Positions 8,827 through 43,974 of a stretch of 52,464 nt of DNA are shown piece by piece (position 1 is the stretch's first letter; each line of letters opens with the position of its first letter). Source of the DNA: Opitutales bacterium (GTDB lineage Bacteria > Verrucomicrobiota > Verrucomicrobiia > Opitutales > Oceanipulchritudinaceae); assembly GCA_020831585.1 (NCBI GenBank), contig JAFIGE010000016.1:1-52464 (forward strand), in the 5' to 3' direction. A program made the position numbers and the translations under genes. The notes below the pieces were generated by a model, which saw only the letters and a list, made by a program, of their open reading frames with translations, was not told the DNA's origin and did no database searches.

Positions 8827-9930
8827 CTATTGGCCGAGAAAACGGCGCTGCAAAGACGGCCACTCCGCCGACTGGGTGATTTCCAGGAGCGCGAGGTTGA
8901 TCTCGGTGAGGAGCGGCGAGCCCGCCGACAGGCCGAGGGCGTAGAACCCGGGCTGGAAATCATTCTCCAATACGACCAGACGACCGGGAAAGGTTTCGCG
9001 CACGAGGTGCCGGAGGAGGGCGGCATCATTTACAAACCCGTCCAGGCGGCCTTCGGCCACCGCCCGCATACCGGCCTCCGTATCGGGAAAGCCGACATGC
9101 GCCACGCCCTCGGATCGAAGAAAGGCCTCCGCCTGCGAGCCGGCGACCGTTCCCACACGCGCCCCGTATAGATCAGAAAAGGAACTGATGCGGGGGGTGA
9201 TCGTGCTCACCGTGAGAGAGGACGCCACCGCGCCGGTGAACACCGAAACGAGGAGCAGCGAGCTAAACATCCATACAAAACCAATAACCTTACCGAGGCG
9301 GGAGATCGGGTATTTATCGCCATACCCAACGGTCGTCATGGTCACTGCCGACCACCAGAAGCCGCTCCCCACCCCCTCGGCGACGGAGCCTCCAAAGTGC
9401 TCCGGGTTGCGCTGCCGCTCGGCCAACCAGATGATGAAACCCACTGCCATCAAACCGGCAAGCAGCGCACCCACGGCAATCAGAAACGGCCACGTGAACA
9501 GACTCTGCAAGATCGCCTGCCCGACCGAGCCGACGGCGGGCTTCGTTGCCACGCTGAGGCCGCCGCTGTAGAAAGAATGAGAGAAATCCATGAAGCGTTC
9601 CCGCTCCGCTGTCACCACCAGAGCAGCCGCCCCCACATCCGCTTCGCCTGCCCGGAGGGCGGCCAGCAACTCGCGGACCGTATAGGGTTGCAGCGTATAT
9701 TCGAGGTCCAGTCGGTCGGCGATCCGACGCCACAGCTCCACCGTCAACCCGGTCCACTCGCCATCCGCGCCCTCATAAGAAAAAGGCGGCGAAGGCGTCA
9801 CGCCCACGATAAGGGGCCGGGGCTCCTCTGCCCAACCCATGGCAGGGGCGGCAAAAAAAACGGTCAAGAGGACGGCATTTATCCATCGCTTCACTCCACT
9901 TAGGCTGATCCTCAGCATAAAATCACTCAA
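8827..9930 (-). CDS. GluR0-like ligand-gated potassium channel (SBP_bac_3 plus ion channel)
   Basis: A 367-residue membrane protein with the order signal peptide (to about residue 34), first half of an amino-acid-type periplasmic binding domain (LIVGVTPSPPFSYEGADGEWTGLTVELWRRIA), a transmembrane helix, pore loop MTTVGYGDKYP, a second transmembrane helix, then the second half of the binding domain (YGARVGTVAGSQAEAFLRSEG to the C-terminus). TVGYGD is the potassium selectivity filter. This split-binding-domain plan is that of the prokaryotic glutamate receptor GluR0 from Synechocystis, about 397 residues and also K+-selective. It would open a K+ path when an extracellular amino acid or similar ligand binds. 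The ligand is unknown; no partner gene is evident. Confidence 0.9.
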   Translation of the reverse strand: MSDFMLRISLSGVKRWINAVLLTVFFAAPAMGWAEEPRPLIVGVTPSPPFSYEGADGEWTGLTVELWRRIADRLDLEYTLQPYTVRELLAALRAGEADVGAAALVVTAERERFMDFSHSFYSGGLSVATKPAVGSVGQAILQSLFTWPFLIAVGALLAGLMAVGFIIWLAERQRNPEHFGGSVAEGVGSGFWWSAVTMTTVGYGDKYPISRLGKVIGFVWMFSSLLLVSVFTGAVASSLTVSTITPRISSFSDLYGARVGTVAGSQAEAFLRSEGVAHVGFPDTEAGMRAVAEGRLDGFVNDAALLRHLVRETFPGRLVVLENDFQPGFYALGLSAGSPLLTEINLALLEITQSAEWPSLQRRFLGQ

Positions 9931-17779: not shown

Positions 17780-18781
17780 ATGTCAAGGTATACGAAAAGG
17801 CCGGTTTTGGAGGACGAGGTGTGTGTGCATGTGATGTCGCGGGTGGTGCAGAAGCGTTTCTTGATCGATGAACGGGGAATGGAGGAGATGCGGCGGATTT
17901 TGCGCACGCAGGCGACGTTCGCCGGATTGGATGTGATCACGTTCTGCTTTCTCAAGAATCACTTTCATATTCTGCTGCATGTGGATCCGGTGACAGCGCG
18001 TATGGAGGTGTCGGACGCGGAGCTGGTGCGCCGTTTCCGGGCGCTCTACGGAACAAAGCGCTCGCCCTCGCTGGGGGTGGATGGGGATGGATTGGCCGTT
18101 GTGCTGAGTCAGGCTTCAGAGCGGACAGCGGAAGTGAGGCGCAAACTGAAGGCACGCATGGGGAACGTCTCGGTCTTCATGCGGGAACTGAAGACACGCT
18201 TCACTTTCTGGTACAACGAAAACTTCAAAACCGTGGGCACCTTCTGGGCGGAACGCTTCCGCAGCGTCCTGGTGGAGCCCGGCTCCCCCGCCCTGCGTAG
18301 CGTGGCCGCCTATATTGACCTCAATGCGGTGCGCGCCGGGCTGGCGAAAACACCCCAGGTCTATCGCTTCTGCGGCCTCGGGGAAGCCGCGAACAACCCC
18401 AGAGCAAAGCTCGCCTACGCCTGGCTTTCAAGAAGACGCCACCCCCCCCCTAACACACGACCAAAAACAGCGGATGAAATTTTCCAGTCTTATCTCACTC
18501 ACGTTCAAAGAATTGTGACTCGTTTGGAGAACGAAAAAGCCGAGGCAGGAAAAGCCACCCTGGACACTCCCCCACCGCACGCGGTGCAGGAAGCACGCTC
18601 CGGTAACGAATACATGGGCAAGGGCTGCGCGGTGGGCACTTTTCAATGGATAGAGCAGCTCCTCGCGCCGAATGGCCTGCTCGGCTTCCTAAACCCAACG
18701 AAGCCCGGCAAGCCCAGGACGATTCCCGGCAGCTCCCTTTACTCCGCCAAACGGTGGCGAGGCAATGAAACGAATTCCTAA
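17780..18781 (+). CDS. REP-associated tyrosine transposase (RAYT)-like protein, copy 1
   Basis: A 333-residue Y1_Tnp/HUH-type protein related to IS200/IS605 transposases, single-strand DNA nucleases linked to REP hairpins. The HUH motif is KNHFHILLHV (about residues 60-69). The region MRELKTRFTFWYNENF then KTVGTFWAERFRSVLVE and AAYIDLNAVRAGL are the conserved second half. At the position I align with the first Tyr of the E. coli RRYVQY helix there is Phe; a Tyr lies one residue before the Asn. The C-terminal ~120 residues are variable. No terminal inverted repeats or target duplications are visible, as expected for RAYTs, which are usually single-copy, non-self-mobile genes. Divergent from ychF. 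Confidence 0.85.
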   Translation: MSRYTKRPVLEDEVCVHVMSRVVQKRFLIDERGMEEMRRILRTQATFAGLDVITFCFLKNHFHILLHVDPVTARMEVSDAELVRRFRALYGTKRSPSLGVDGDGLAVVLSQASERTAEVRRKLKARMGNVSVFMRELKTRFTFWYNENFKTVGTFWAERFRSVLVEPGSPALRSVAAYIDLNAVRAGLAKTPQVYRFCGLGEAANNPRAKLAYAWLSRRRHPPPNTRPKTADEIFQSYLTHVQRIVTRLENEKAEAGKATLDTPPPHAVQEARSGNEYMGKGCAVGTFQWIEQLLAPNGLLGFLNPTKPGKPRTIPGSSLYSAKRWRGNETNS

Positions 18782-25523: not shown

Positions 25524-25622
25524 GCACCTTTCCCTCTTCCCTCTCATCACTTCACTTAAAAAAATAATTTTGCAGTCTGATTATTGGTTGACTTAAGGAG
25601 CAGCGGCGACGAGATTGAAGGC

Positions 25623-26597
25623 ATGCGAATCAAGATGCGTAAGCAGTTGGGTGTATATCACTGTGTGAGCCGGGTGGTGGACCGGCGGCGGGTGCTCGGA
25701 GATGTGGAGCGAGAGGTGATGCGCAAGATCCTGTGGCGGGTGGCGGACTTTTGTGGGGTGGAGCTGCTCACTTATTGCCTGATGGGCAATCACTTCCATG
25801 TGCTGGTGCGGGCAGGGAAGGAACAGGGTGCGGCGAGCGATGCGGCGGTTTATGCGCGGGCCGAGGGCTACTATGCCAGCGGACAAAGCTTGGCGCAAAA
25901 GGAGTATTGGGCGGAGATTGAGCGGGCTTACCGAAAAGGGGGCGAAGATTGGACCGGGTGGGCGGAGCGCCTGCGGGCACGGATGGGGGATGTGTCGTGG
26001 TTTATGCGGCTGTTTAAGCAGGGGTTCTCGGTGTGGTTCAACCGGCGGGGAGATCGCACGGGGACGCTCTGGGAGAGCCGTTTTACGAGCGTGTTGGTGG
26101 AGGATGCGCCGCTGGCAGTGGCGACGGTGGCCGCTTACATCGATTTAAATCCGGTGCGGGCGGGGCTGGTGAAGGATCCGAAAGATTACCGGTGGTGCGG
26201 GTATGCGGAGGCGCTGGCGCGGGGAAAACGGAGGCGTCCGTCGCTTTGTTGTTTGTTTCAGGCGAAGGATTGGGCGGAGGCGCTGGCGCGGTATCGCCTG
26301 ATCCTGTTCAACAAGGGGGCATCGGGGAAACCGGGGCAGGCTTCGATTTCGCCGGAGGCGCGAAAAGCGGTGCAGGTGCAGGGCGGGCGGTTGGGCCTGG
26401 GGTCGCTGGTGCGGCACCGGGTGCGCTACTTCACGGCGGGAGCGGTGGTGGGGAGCCGCGCATTTGTGGAGGCATGCTTTGCGGATTTCCGTGAGCGGTT
26501 TGGGCGGAATCGGAAGAAGGGGGCGCACGCAATGCGCGGAGGCGACTGGGAGGGACTGACGAGTCTGCGGGATTTGCGAAAAGACTCTATGGGATGA
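25623..26597 (+). CDS. REP-associated tyrosine transposase (RAYT)-like protein, copy 2
   Basis: A 324-residue Y1_Tnp/HUH protein. HUH motif GNHFHVLVRA (about 58-67); then MRLFKQGFSVWFNRRGDRTGTLWESRFTSVLVE and AAYIDLNPVRAGLV. Phe replaces Tyr at the position I align with the E. coli RAYT nucleophile helix. The C-terminus ends MRGGDWEGLTSLRDLRKDSMG, nearly the same as the gene end seen at 52400-52464, so those two belong to one subfamily. The ATG at 25623 is preferred over an upstream TTG at 25584. The GC-rich, G-strand-biased composition differs from the preceding C-strand-rich arg genes. Confidence 0.85.
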   Translation: MRIKMRKQLGVYHCVSRVVDRRRVLGDVEREVMRKILWRVADFCGVELLTYCLMGNHFHVLVRAGKEQGAASDAAVYARAEGYYASGQSLAQKEYWAEIERAYRKGGEDWTGWAERLRARMGDVSWFMRLFKQGFSVWFNRRGDRTGTLWESRFTSVLVEDAPLAVATVAAYIDLNPVRAGLVKDPKDYRWCGYAEALARGKRRRPSLCCLFQAKDWAEALARYRLILFNKGASGKPGQASISPEARKAVQVQGGRLGLGSLVRHRVRYFTAGAVVGSRAFVEACFADFRERFGRNRKKGAHAMRGGDWEGLTSLRDLRKDSMG

Positions 26598-28092: not shown

Positions 28093-28314
28093 GGTTTTGA
28101 ATGAAGCGTGAGAATTTTGAGGTTACCCCCCTGTGAAAGAGAACCATGCGCAAGGATTCAATCGAATTCGGTGCACACTGAGGATTAGTTTTGCTCAGCA
28201 AGGCTCTCTCCCAACAAATCTATGGCGGGGAGGTTTTGTTAAATTTTTGCAGCGAAAAGGGCCCGCTTTTGGTCGTCTTCGGGCATTGGCACTAACGATG
28301 CGGACAGTGAGGCT

Positions 28315-28620
28315 ATGCAACCACTCGACTACCCACACTTGGAGAGCAAAGGATTCATCGGAGCCATCGAATGCACAGATACCGGGGTGACGATACAGTC
28401 CAGCGGGGAGGAGGTGGAGCTCCTCGGCCAGGTGCTTGGTTACGTTACACAAATTGGGAACATGATCGGCGAGTCCTTCGGTTTGGACAACCTGGAGGAG
28501 GCTCATCTCATCGGATCAAACACCACGGCTGTTTGTATCCCTCTGGAAGGCAATCATCTCGGTGTCCTCTGTTCAAATCGAGCGCAGATCGATAGCCTCA
28601 TCTCCGAAATCCTCAACTAA
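28315..28620 (+). CDS. Roadblock/LC7-like domain protein A
   Basis: A 101-residue single-domain protein. The pattern of a short helix, a beta pair with GFIGAIECTDTGVTIQSSG, a long helix (EVELLGQVLGYVTQIGNMIGESFG), then AHLIGSNTTAVCIPLEGNHLGVLCSNRAQID and a final helix matches roadblock/LC7 (MglB-like) domains, which dimerise and regulate small GTPases or act as scaffolds. The ATG at 28315 follows GAGG. First gene of a three-gene cassette (9 and 43 nt gaps). No MglA-type GTPase is present nearby. Family assignment is by fold pattern, not by a diagnostic motif. Confidence 0.65.
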   Translation: MQPLDYPHLESKGFIGAIECTDTGVTIQSSGEEVELLGQVLGYVTQIGNMIGESFGLDNLEEAHLIGSNTTAVCIPLEGNHLGVLCSNRAQIDSLISEILN

Positions 28621-28628
28621 GCCGGTAT

Positions 28629-29207
28629 ATGGTCGAAAAAGTCATCAAAAACGTGCTTGAGCTGAGCGGGGTCGATGGAGCCTGCATCCTCGATAAGCGC
28701 GGGACGCTCCTTCACAACTCTCTGCCTCCTTACTTTATCGCGGATTTTCTTGAGGATTTGTCTCGGCGTATCTTGTCGATGTATGAGGCGGTGGACGAGA
28801 ATTACTTACCCTGCGACGACTATCTGCTCAAGTTCCCACAGAAGTTCATCCAGATCCGCAGGAGCCGTACGATTTTGCTCATCGTCATCGTCGACCCCGG
28901 GGTAAACTTGGTGTCTCTGAGAATGGTGACCAATATCGTGCTCAAGCACGTGACTCCAAAGATCGTCGGAGAGTTGCGGGCAGGGGTGCAACAGGAAGCC
29001 GAGACACGGGCGTCGCCCGAGACCCCGGCACCGGCTCCGATTGAAGCCGTTAAGCCCGCTCCCGTCCCGCCGACTTTACCCGAGCCTCCGCCTTTGCCGA
29101 AGATCCCGCCCAAGGAAGCCGAGCTTGAGCCAGTGGCCACAGAGGCTTCCCCCGCCCCGGCGATGCCGCCCCCGAAAAAGCGCTTCTACCGCGGAGTGGA
29201 ATATTAG
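28629..29207 (+). CDS. Roadblock/LC7-like domain protein B with Pro-rich tail
   Basis: A 192-residue protein. Residues 1-115 look like a second, divergent roadblock-type domain: VIKNVLELSGVDGACILDKRGTLLHNSL, a long helix (FIADFLEDLSRRILSMYEAV), KFIQIRRSRTILLIVIVDPGVNLVSLRMVTNIVLKHV. Residues about 125-182 are a Pro/Ala/Glu-rich linker, ending in a basic aromatic tip KKRFYRGVEY that may dock a partner. It starts 9 nt after protein A, so a heterodimer of the two is plausible. No enzymatic motif. Confidence 0.6.
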   Translation: MVEKVIKNVLELSGVDGACILDKRGTLLHNSLPPYFIADFLEDLSRRILSMYEAVDENYLPCDDYLLKFPQKFIQIRRSRTILLIVIVDPGVNLVSLRMVTNIVLKHVTPKIVGELRAGVQQEAETRASPETPAPAPIEAVKPAPVPPTLPEPPPLPKIPPKEAELEPVATEASPAPAMPPPKKRFYRGVEY

Positions 29208-29250
29208 AGCGGAGACCCCGTTCGTCTGACCCGCAGAACCAAAGCCTTCC

Positions 29251-30585
29251 ATGATCCACGTATTCACCCGTGATGCCCGCTTGCGGGGCCGTCTGGCTCT
29301 CCTTCTCCGGGAGTTGGGGCATAGCGCGCAGTTTTTTGAAAGCGTGGTAGACTCAGTGGAGGCAGCAAGTAGTCGCCCAAGATCCCTCTTGATCAGAGAC
29401 ATTGCGATGGCGGAGGAGGCCGGGGCTTTGCAGTCGTCGACAAAGGAATTACCCGAGGTATGGGTAGAGGCACCTGAGCAGCTTTCTCAGGATTCGGTAA
29501 GGGGTCGACCTGCCAACTCCGAGTTCTACGTTTTGCTTCCTCAGCAACCAAACCGGGCTAAAGAACGGTTGCGCTCAGCAATCAATCAGGCCCTCGTCCG
29601 GGGACCGCAGACCCTGCGTTTGCATCGGGACGCGTCCCTCCGGCCTCCCGCTTCCGTCCCTGCGCAAGCACGATCTTCCGCCAACTTTACGCAAAGCCGC
29701 TTTGGCCGGGGATCAACCGCGCAAGCTCAGGTAAGCGGGACGCCCCGTGCCCGCCCATCCGTACCGGAACGTCCGCTTGGGCAACCTGCGGTCCCCTCGC
29801 CAAAGCCGGCGGCGCCCTCCCCTCCCCGCTATCTCATTGCTGAGAGCGTGGCAGCCAGGAGCCTCCTCACGCGCCTGCGCACGGCAAAGAATTTCCAAGC
29901 TGCGCTCGTCTTCCACGGGCCGGCCGGTGCGGAGTTTGAAACCGCCGCCCGGGAGGTAAACTATCTGGTCAACGGCGACCGCGAAACCCTGGCTTTCATC
30001 CCGCCCGACGATTTTTCGATTGAGCGCCTCGTCCAGATGGAACGGGCCTGTGAAAGCTCGAACGGACCGCGTCTATGTTTTTTACAGCATTTAGAGGAGA
30101 TCCGCCCGGAACCAGCCCGCCACCTGGCGGAAATCGTCCAGCGTCTGAAAAGGGCCCCGCGCCCTCCCCTTCGGCTGCTCACCGCGCTCAAAAAAGGGCA
30201 AGGCTTTCTCGATCCAGTGGCCGAGCAAATTGTGGAAACGCTGCTCACGGATCTCCCCCGCCTCGAACTGCCGCCGCTCTCGCAACGGTTGGAGGACATT
30301 CGGCCGCTTGCCCTGCGCCTTCTCAGCACCATGCTCGAAGCGCACCCGTTTTTGGTCGTCCGGGAGATTTCGCCCGAGGCCCTCACCTTCCTTGAAGAGC
30401 AAAGCGGGAGTCTACAGTTCGCCGAGCTGGTGGGCCTCCTGAGAAACGCCTTTGCCCTGGCTTCACGCCCCGTTCTCGGGGTGGCTGAACTGACCGGGCT
30501 TCTCGACTCCGACCATGCTGGCCGCCACCTCCTCGAAAGCGCGGCGGACGAGCACTGCTTCCCGAATGCGGGACAGGCCGGCTAA
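29251..30585 (+). CDS. Degenerate NtrC-like protein: receiver-like domain plus non-catalytic sigma-54-type AAA+ domain
   Basis: A 444-residue protein. Residues 1-115 resemble a response-regulator receiver (HVFTRDARLRGRLALLLRELGHSAQFFESV, RSLLIRDIA), but the phospho-acceptor Asp context is not clear. Residues 125-192 are a Pro/Ala/Arg-rich linker. Residues 193-420 follow the order of a sigma-54 activator AAA+ domain, from YLIAESVAARSLLTRLR through PPLSQRLEDIRPLALRLL (the PLRxRxEDI segment, retained) to AELVGLLRNAFALA (WPGNxREL-like). Walker A is HGPAGAEFET instead of GESGTGKE, the Walker B aspartates are absent and there is no GAFTGA loop or DNA-binding HTH. It therefore should not hydrolyse ATP or remodel sigma-54. 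Third gene of the roadblock cassette; probably a signalling scaffold. Confidence 0.7.
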   Translation: MIHVFTRDARLRGRLALLLRELGHSAQFFESVVDSVEAASSRPRSLLIRDIAMAEEAGALQSSTKELPEVWVEAPEQLSQDSVRGRPANSEFYVLLPQQPNRAKERLRSAINQALVRGPQTLRLHRDASLRPPASVPAQARSSANFTQSRFGRGSTAQAQVSGTPRARPSVPERPLGQPAVPSPKPAAPSPPRYLIAESVAARSLLTRLRTAKNFQAALVFHGPAGAEFETAAREVNYLVNGDRETLAFIPPDDFSIERLVQMERACESSNGPRLCFLQHLEEIRPEPARHLAEIVQRLKRAPRPPLRLLTALKKGQGFLDPVAEQIVETLLTDLPRLELPPLSQRLEDIRPLALRLLSTMLEAHPFLVVREISPEALTFLEEQSGSLQFAELVGLLRNAFALASRPVLGVAELTGLLDSDHAGRHLLESAADEHCFPNAGQAG

Positions 30586-42930: not shown

Positions 42931-43932
42931 TTACATCCTCCCATTCGCGGCAAAGCACGCCTCCCCCTCGCACTCGCCCACCTGCACCGCCCCCTTCGCA
43001 CGCTGAACGAACCCCTTTTCGCTTCTCGCCCTCACAAAGGCATCCACAAAACTCTGTGTGCCAATCACCGCGCCCTGCGTCATATATCGTAGACGACAGC
43101 CCAGCATTTCCGCAATGCTTACACCCCCACGGCGTTCTTTCACAGCGGCCGCTTTGATCGGCGAAACCGTGCCCCCCTTTCGCGGATCCGAGCCGCTCAC
43201 AAAGAGAAACTCACGATAACGCGCGGCTACCGTAACCACAGAATCGCTTCGTTGATCACGAATGCGTGCCCAGAGCCCATAGGTTTTCCACTCGCCGGAC
43301 CCCATGGCTGCTCCATAGCCGCTGAATCGGTAATCCTTCGGATCGTCCACCACACCCGCCCGCACAGGATTCAGATCAATGTAGGCCGCCACCATCCGCA
43401 CAGCGGCCCGGGTGTTCTCCACCAGGACACTCCGAAACCGCCCTTCCCACAGCGTCCCTGCACGATCATACTTTCGATTGAACAAAATCGAGTATCGCTG
43501 CTTCAGGATCTTCATGAACATCGGTAGCGCACCCATTCGCCCAATCAACAAAGCACGCATGGCCTCGCGCACCTCCCCACCCGCCCGAAGTGCCCCTTCA
43601 ATTCGCGCCATCGAGAGGGGTTGACCCTTGCGCTCCTCCCCGTAAAGCAAGCGCGCTCTCGCCAACAAAACCTCATCACTGAGGTCACCCACCTGGCCCG
43701 GCACCTCGATCAACAAGTGGAAATGATTCTCCATAAGCGCGTAAGTGATCACCTCCAACCCGCAAAACCCGGCGACTCGCCCAAGCAAACCGCGAAAGGC
43801 CTCTTTCTCCACATCAGAAAGGAGAAAGGCGCGCCCACATACCCGGCTCACAACATGGTAAATCGCATCCAACCCCCCGCCCACCCCGGCCCGGGGCATC
43901 CGTCGACTTTTTTTTGGTATCAGATTTTTCAT
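42931..43932 (-). CDS. REP-associated tyrosine transposase (RAYT)-like protein, copy 3
   Basis: A 333-residue Y1_Tnp/HUH protein from ATG 43932 (an in-frame start exists at 43971). HUH motif ENHFHLLIEV; nucleophile-helix region MKILKQRYSILFNRKYDRAGTLWEGRFRSVLVE, here with Tyr at the position occupied by Phe in copies 1 and 2; AAYIDLNPVRAGVV follows. A C-terminal extension contains VSIAEMLGCRLRYMTQGAVIGTQSFVDAF, also seen in copy 2 (LVRHRVRYFTAGAVVGSRAFVEACF). It lies between the TPR gene and the envelope operon. A CCGGGTAAAATTTTATTGAG motif precedes it. Confidence 0.88.
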   Translation of the reverse strand: MKNLIPKKSRRMPRAGVGGGLDAIYHVVSRVCGRAFLLSDVEKEAFRGLLGRVAGFCGLEVITYALMENHFHLLIEVPGQVGDLSDEVLLARARLLYGEERKGQPLSMARIEGALRAGGEVREAMRALLIGRMGALPMFMKILKQRYSILFNRKYDRAGTLWEGRFRSVLVENTRAAVRMVAAYIDLNPVRAGVVDDPKDYRFSGYGAAMGSGEWKTYGLWARIRDQRSDSVVTVAARYREFLFVSGSDPRKGGTVSPIKAAAVKERRGGVSIAEMLGCRLRYMTQGAVIGTQSFVDAFVRARSEKGFVQRAKGAVQVGECEGEACFAANGRM

Positions 43933-43974
43933 AGCGCCTTCATTCCAAATCAAAACCTGTTCATTACTCAATAA

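Follow-up and report, generated by a model that had tools for sequence, protein, structure and literature searches.

What might two small roadblock-type proteins and a degenerate NtrC-like protein do together in a bacterium, with no small GTPase encoded beside them? The question is raised by three open reading frames (ORFs), here termed R1, R2 and N3, which lie on one strand within positions 28315-30585 of a 52,464-nucleotide (nt) stretch of DNA from Opitutales bacterium (GCA_020831585.1, contig JAFIGE010000016.1, positions 1-52,464, forward strand); the whole of this stretch is referred to below as the window, and the trio and the elements described in and before it are on its forward strand. 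R1 (28315..28620, 101 amino acids (aa)) is predicted to be a roadblock/LC7-fold protein, R2 (28629..29207, 192 aa) is a roadblock/LC7-type protein with a proline-rich linker and a conserved C-terminal peptide, and N3 (29251..30585, 444 aa) is a pseudo-receiver and pseudo-NtrC AAA+ protein in which no helix-turn-helix (HTH) domain was found. The positions of the ORFs and the 43-nt gap between R2 and N3 are as given in the initial annotation, which was made from the DNA letters alone, while the R1-R2 gap measures 8 nt rather than 9 nt. That annotation read the trio as an uncharacterised signalling or polarity module of non-catalytic parts, possibly paired with a GTPase encoded elsewhere. We propose that the trio regulates ammonium transport and is itself controlled by nitrogen, and that the R2 tail mimics the tip of the GlnK T-loop, docks on the ammonium transporter Amt and probably plugs it, a reading to which we give a probability of roughly 0.55. 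Ammonium uptake rather than polarity is favoured as the context because of the Amt neighbour in relatives, the sigma-54-like site and the GlnK-like tail, clues that were not visible to the initial annotation since they are located beyond its coordinates or at the extreme end of R2.

That the trio is a real conserved operon is practically certain. A profile search with R2 of 372 genomes of the window's order found it in 21 genomes at 27 places, comprising 20 of the trio type, four before a rhodopsin gene, one without a recognised R1 (L064), and two within a larger protein (L066, L067). R1 adjoins R2 in all 20 trio-type loci, N3 is present in 17, and the next gene of the operon encodes an Amt (PF00909, above the cut-off) in 14. 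The synteny search proposed with the initial annotation has thereby found R2 and N3 together in 17 of the 20 loci; the three that lack N3 (L010, L011 and L050) keep R1, R2, the tail and Amt, L050 being an odd copy in which an in-frame TAG lies close to R2 and the Amt frame is extended. Of 367 sampled genomes of the phylum, eight contained R2, all of the window's order and all among the 21, and no relatives of R2 were found in the viral contigs searched. Named relatives comprise Coraliomargarita sp. SDUM461004, whose R2 is 61% identical to that of the window, and six metagenome-assembled genomes (Puniceicoccaceae, Opitutales, Opitutia or Opitutae). R1 and R2 are under purifying selection in two groups of relatives: across seven pairs of relatives, window excluded, the ratio of nonsynonymous to synonymous divergence (dN/dS) is 0-0.035 for R1 and 0.04-0.08 for R2, at dS values of 0.8-2.5 that are near saturation. 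For N3 in the same pairs dN is 0.087-0.136, with dS saturated in five of the seven. In one locus, R1 is closely preceded by a 684-aa gene (L053:5930-7984) that by eye resembles a PAS-domain gene.

The link to Amt extends to the transporters themselves. A tree was built from 58 of the 67 Amt matches (five long-frame and four partial sequences being omitted), and in it the 14 Amts linked to the trio form a supported clade of 15 rows together with one unlinked Amt from genome G328. A search of the order with one linked Amt (E <=1e-140) returned 18 genomes, in four of which the Amt lies apart from R1-R2: G328, placed by the tree, carries the trio elsewhere in its genome, and G036, G015 and G008, assigned to the trio kind only by 60-64% identity, have no R2 match. 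The gene glnK follows all four of these unlinked Amts, but only four of the 14 linked ones (L054-L057). For the other ten, no glnK was found in the fetched locus, which spans at least 1.6 kb beyond amt, and their genomes carry glnK beside other amts. The linked Amts are also marked by a C-terminal extension (...HGNEAY[AP]DFxxYxD...), detected by pattern in the last 60 residues of 13 of the 14, and in none of 44 unlinked Amts; in the fourteenth (L050, with its extended frame) DFxxYxD is present further in. Amt is likely to be the partner of the trio in the family, and on balance, with distinctly less confidence, the partner of the window copy too. Two further observations concern Amt and GlnK in this order. 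The GlnK proteins of the four R1-R2-N3-amt-glnK operons have the T-loop YRGNEYRVDF, compared with YRGSEYTVDF in the other GlnK proteins seen, and L122 and L142 hold Amt fusions, identified by Pfam, with a SpoIIE phosphatase or a histidine kinase.

Upstream of R1 in the window lies a sigma-54 (-24/-12) promoter-like site, TTGGCACTAACGATGC (28286..28301), with a score of 11.1 of 12.7. Such sites were scored with a consensus and weights entered by hand, with thresholds chosen after the scores were known and with the start of R1 in L054 shifted to the homologous ATG before final scoring. At a score of >=10.3, a site is present <=70 nt before R1 in 18 of the 20 trio-type loci, including the window, compared with 1.7% of random 70-nt segments of the same loci, seven of 279 called gene starts (which may include some R1 genes), and none of four opsin-type loci; at >=10.9, the figures are 15 of 20 loci and 0.5% of random 70-nt segments. 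The distance from site to ATG is 11-34 nt in 16 of the 18 loci (7 nt in L061 and 50 nt in L054), and because the site is so near the ATG the window mRNA may be leaderless. Among unlinked amt genes, 16 of 25 starts have a site scoring >=10.9 inside 250 nt (by hand tally, 16 of 22 with glnK and none of three without); for scale, 2.1% of random 300-nt segments attain this score. In the window genome, a site of this kind precedes the glnK-linked amt (L118), and the gene for RpoN lies on a different contig (L152). The R1 promoter is predicted, by pattern only, to be of the sigma-54 type, and it is very likely that the trio operon is under nitrogen control.

The R2 tail suggests how the trio might act on its neighbour. 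Beyond residue 118 the window R2 is 28% proline, and this linker (28983..29180) leads into the C-terminal peptide RFYRGVEY (29181..29204). All 20 R2 proteins of the trio type have R-x-[FY]-R-G-x-x-Y as their last eight residues. A C-terminal [FY]RGxxY is confined to these 20 among the 3703 ORFs of >=60 aa from the window and 66 loci (none of the other 3683), and the 5.28 Mb genome has no [FY]-R-G-x-x-Y-stop (with CGN arginine codons) besides the window tail. When the motif [FY]RGxxY was sought at any position in the 588 genes called in the loci, it was present in ten R2, 30 GlnK (in the T-loop) and one other protein, a count in which some R2 were missed by the gene caller and GlnK is abundant because amt regions were fetched. 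The counterpart of the R2 tail in GlnK is the tip of the T-loop, residues 46-51 (Y46-R47-G48-x-x-Y51), and the window tail YRGVEY differs at one of six positions from YRGSEY in the GlnK of its own genome (L118). The T-loop tip is described as entering the Amt pore, which is blocked by Arg47 (PMC4274968, PMC3198391), and Tyr51 as the site of uridylylation (PMC4274968, PMC3198391, PMC8395244). With the genome's own GlnK as the phmmer query, no window ORF, R2 included, was matched at E <=1e-5. The resemblance to the GlnK/PII-AmtB system lies in the linkage to amt, the sigma-54-type site and the [FY]-R-G-x-x-Y peptide, whereas R2 itself is of the roadblock type, carries the peptide at a free C-terminus past a proline-rich linker rather than in a loop, and has no known nucleotide or 2-oxoglutarate site.

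In the mechanism that we propose, RpoN would turn the operon on at nitrogen shortage, alongside the amt-glnK operons, and R1 and R2 would assemble as a roadblock dimer or a higher assembly, from which the proline-rich arm of R2 would hold out its copy of the T-loop tip. The tail would dock on the cytoplasmic mouth of Amt and probably plug it, taking over the role of GlnK for the linked Amt clade, with the DFxxYxD extension as a possible second contact, and N3 may control the timing of tail presentation, as a sensor or an assembly platform. That the tail sits in the Amt pore itself is a tentative proposal, with the odds somewhat against it. A precedent for a non-PII protein acting on AmtB, as proposed here for R2, is sP36 of Methanosarcina mazei, reported to mediate inhibition by GlnK1 (PMC10714827); it differs in being a 61-aa archaeal protein that works through GlnK1. 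The same tail allows another explanation, which we consider unlikely, in which it competes with GlnK, or for the enzyme that modifies GlnK (GlnD, on Tyr51), and thereby relieves the inhibition of Amt. The C-terminal Tyr at the Tyr51 position and the four operons that keep glnK beside a trio-linked Amt are in keeping with this; the ten of 14 linked Amts without an adjoining glnK argue against it, although competition in trans would be open to them, given the glnK genes beside other amts.

Several observations weigh against the proposed mechanism. The tail agrees with GlnK at four positions only of a short peptide, which could be accidental; Glu50 of GlnK is kept in one of the 20 tails (that of the window), 11 of 20 tails have Phe as the aromatic residue, and opposite Glu44 of GlnK there is an invariant Arg in R2 (position -7). 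The E. coli GlnK variant R47A is reported to retain AmtB binding (PMC4274968), so Arg47 is dispensable for binding. The retention of glnK in four linked operons, the three trio-type loci without N3, and the absence of an adjoining Amt from six of the 20 loci, including the window, point the same way, as do the scores of L010 and L011, which fall short of the sigma-54 threshold, and the lack of a clear sigma-54 site at L171, L172 and L174, three of the four trio-kind Amts that are unlinked. The window genome adds difficulties of its own: it has two Amts, both of other clades and neither with the DFxxYxD extension, one of which has glnK, and a sigma-54-like site is present at just one of them.

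The part played by N3 bears on a further alternative. On its own, the window N3 has a weak match to NtrC-type regulators (best E 3.8e-6) and to AAA_lid_14 (E 0.057), and it is nearest to PgtA, not NtrC; across the family at E <=0.1, AAA_lid_14 is matched by 14 of 17 members, Sigma54_activ_2 by ten and Response_reg by eight (best 8.7e-15). The model of N3 (predicted local distance difference test (pLDDT) 78, predicted template modelling score (pTM) 0.56) matches NtrC1 at E 1.8e-14, with a whole-chain template modelling score (TM) of only ~0.4, and matches restricted to the AAA+ domain reach ~0.66-0.69 of the target. A receiver-like domain, a low-confidence linker (residues 119-183, pLDDT <50) and an NtrC-like AAA+ domain are apparent. 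Walker A, GAFTGA and a hydrophobic-DE Walker B were found by pattern search in none of the 17 family members, the Walker A segment being degenerate in the window (HGPAGAEFET, 29914..29943) by comparison with the common family form GEEGSEFELxARE in the family alignment. No HTH family was matched by the window N3, the chain of which ends shortly past the lid region. By hand reading, its receiver keeps the terminal aspartate of strand 3, and Leu-Pro replaces the expected conserved Lys-Pro of strand 5. The initial description of N3 as a degenerate NtrC-like protein is borne out by these patterns and by the window Pfam scan, and its receiver plus AAA+ architecture, shared with the NtrC/NtrX-type enhancer-binding proteins, by the family Pfam matches and the NtrC1 match of the model; what sets N3 apart from those proteins is that neither the three motifs (Walker A, Walker B and GAFTGA) nor an HTH was found. 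Searches of the sequences of solved structures with R2 and N3 gave no relevant match.

Such a protein could poison or act as a decoy for NtrC-type activators and so modulate nitrogen transcription, with R1-R2 tethering it to Amt as a nitrogen sensor. Two N3 relatives are nearest to NtrC among curated families (the L054 member at E 3.4e-17 and the L062 member at 8.6e-12), and the operon has its sigma-54-like site. This explanation is nevertheless improbable, if a little less so than the others considered here: it leaves the T-loop-like tail unexplained, the window N3 is nearest to PgtA rather than NtrC, and N3 is not the core, since the three linked loci without it keep R1, R2, the tail and Amt. 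The persistence of the tail in these loci also led us to reject binding of N3 as its main purpose.

The roadblock character of R1 and R2 is visible mainly at the level of the family and of models. The window R1 has no Pfam match of its own, and the R1 family matches Robl_LC7 in six of 25 members at E <=1 (best 1.5e-5). The AlphaFold2 model of R1 (pLDDT 87.8) resembles a Thorarchaeota roadblock protein, MglB and MP1/p14 in a Foldseek comparison with known structures (best E 1.1e-6, TM ~0.78), and R1 is predicted to adopt the roadblock fold. The window R2 matches Robl_LC7 at E 0.0045 (17.1 bits, against a curated cut-off of 23), as do 15 of 25 family members at E <=0.1, with a best value of only 0.0011 that is still below the curated cut-off, so that the similarity is weak throughout the family and R2 is weakly indicated to be roadblock-like. 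Neither window protein reaches the Pfam curated cut-off for roadblock/LC7, and a search of the window's genome with PF03259 gave no match; the plain Pfam model is therefore unsuited to proteins as divergent as these. Compared with each other as profiles, R1 and R2 align over 33 columns with a probability of 32%. The roadblock assignment of the initial annotation accordingly holds for R1 by model and Foldseek, and for R2 by these weak family matches. A eukaryotic parallel is offered by Ragulator, in which two different roadblock proteins (MP1/p14, whose chains the R1 model resembles) act as a scaffold; the trio differs in having no Rag GTPase, and the pairing of R1 with R2 is our inference.

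R1-R2 pairs also occur in settings other than the Amt operon. In the window genome, a second pair (L012:8505-11923, contig C245) precedes a bacteriorhodopsin-family gene whose reading frame is interrupted by a shift in a run of G (near 9617-9627), either an assembly error or real; downstream of it are genes for a 357-aa protein of no family and for a receiver-like protein with a weak match. In L049, L063 and L065, from three other genomes, the rhodopsin gene that follows R1-R2 is intact. Among themselves these three rhodopsins give E-values of 4e-82 or lower, whereas the other rhodopsins compared reach 2e-36 at best (those of the 30 of 50 matches that had loci, together with L155, L156 and a second L063 gene); the L012 pieces are joined to this set by context. 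R2 ends in IWG in all four rhodopsin-type loci, and no sigma-54-like site was found in them. A third type consists of R1 followed by an R2-like domain inside a protein of ~670-690 aa (L013:380-2618, L066:1495-3754, L067:6539-8786), with an FGE-sulfatase domain detected by Pfam in L013 and L066; L013 stems from a separate search and is additional to the 27 places. This distribution suggests that the R1-R2 pair can be reused as an adaptor for which the tail is the address. It also accommodates the view that the R1-R2 scaffold positions or clusters membrane proteins such as Amt and rhodopsin without gating them, the C-terminal peptides being sorting or docking tags, for which the sister pair ending in IWG and the fused third type both speak. 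We regard this as unlikely, since it does not predict that the Amt-type tag should look like the GlnK T-loop tip. Two further proposals were set aside: a general link between rhodopsin and R1-R2 was rejected, rhodopsin being found in 46 of the 372 genomes but only four of the 27 R2 places preceding one, and the L012 gene after rhodopsin, which to the eye resembled a degenerate NtrC, is not claimed as an N3 homologue (profile comparison probability 4.5%, no Pfam or NCBIfam match). A gene of ~230 aa lies just upstream of the rhodopsin-type pair in two loci (L049:2432-3124 and L063:8803-9498), the L049 copy having no Pfam match.

The remaining explanation is the one first suggested for the window, a polarity or Ras-like GTPase module with its GTPase encoded elsewhere. 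It draws on the fact that roadblock proteins such as MglB act on MglA, and on the divergent orientation of the trio to a gene read as mreB by eye in three genomes. No match to PF00025 or PF08477 (E <=0.001) was found in a frame of <364 aa in the 21 R2 genomes, although this search may miss divergent GTPases, and E. coli also matches PF00025, so that control genomes are a poor yardstick. Most of the matches look like IF-2 (~850 aa) by frame length alone, and G010 has a 1021-aa frame that clearly matches Roc (E 4.7e-21). The MglA-like GTPase suggested as a companion of the trio was therefore not seen within these limits, and a GTPase module, which would also leave the Amt linkage and the sigma-54-like site unexplained, is very improbable. 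What stands of the initial reading is a module of non-catalytic parts that recurs in other genomes; the polarity and GTPase pairing is not supported. The trio shares roadblock-fold proteins with MglA/MglB, which also act with a receiver-domain protein, RomR (PMC6785124). Conservons (CvnA-D) are described as combining genes for a histidine-kinase-like protein, a roadblock protein, a DUF (domain of unknown function) protein and a Ras-like GTPase (PMC13343842). The difference from both systems is that a small Ras-like GTPase is neither in the operon nor found in the 21 genomes, and with respect to conservons the trio comes without a GTPase gene, its neighbours having been inspected by eye for the window and a part of the loci. 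The four loci of family f14 (L058-L061) have the trio without an adjoining Amt; in L058-L060 R1 is divergent from the mreB-like gene, and a link to cell shape may exist in these three.

For the window itself, where the trio has its promoter-like site and tail and no neighbouring Amt, no Amt of the linked clade was found in the genome. The trio may act in trans on the two other Amts of the genome, as our mechanism would have it, or else be kept for another reason; it is probably in use, because the frames are intact and R2 is so similar to that of Coraliomargarita. The window also contains three IS200-like (Y1_Tnp) transposase genes of ~335-345 aa (17780-18781, 25584-26597 and 42931-43971), one of which lies two genes upstream of the trio, and these may be of the RAYT type.

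Amt control is known to rest mainly on PII proteins. No report of a link between roadblock proteins and Amt, or of a T-loop mimic, was found in the literature searched, in which subscription papers were little covered. Roadblock proteins that lack a GTPase gene next to them are common: a 2014 survey listed 328 MglB homologues uncoupled from an MglA gene, and at that time gave no characterised orphan (PMC4316618). A speculative extension, to which we lean less than to its alternatives, is that roadblock pairs serve this order as a general kit to gate transport proteins, with a partner-specific tail (the T-loop mimic for Amt, the IWG peptide for rhodopsin); if true, the T-loop would have its first mimic outside the PII proteins, and bacteria would have roadblock proteins that regulate transporters and need no GTPase. 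One group of GTPase-less roadblock proteins gains a concrete, testable job, and, if the proposal is true, a roadblock protein bearing a PII plug peptide would represent convergent mimicry of a signalling contact that is among the best studied in bacteria.

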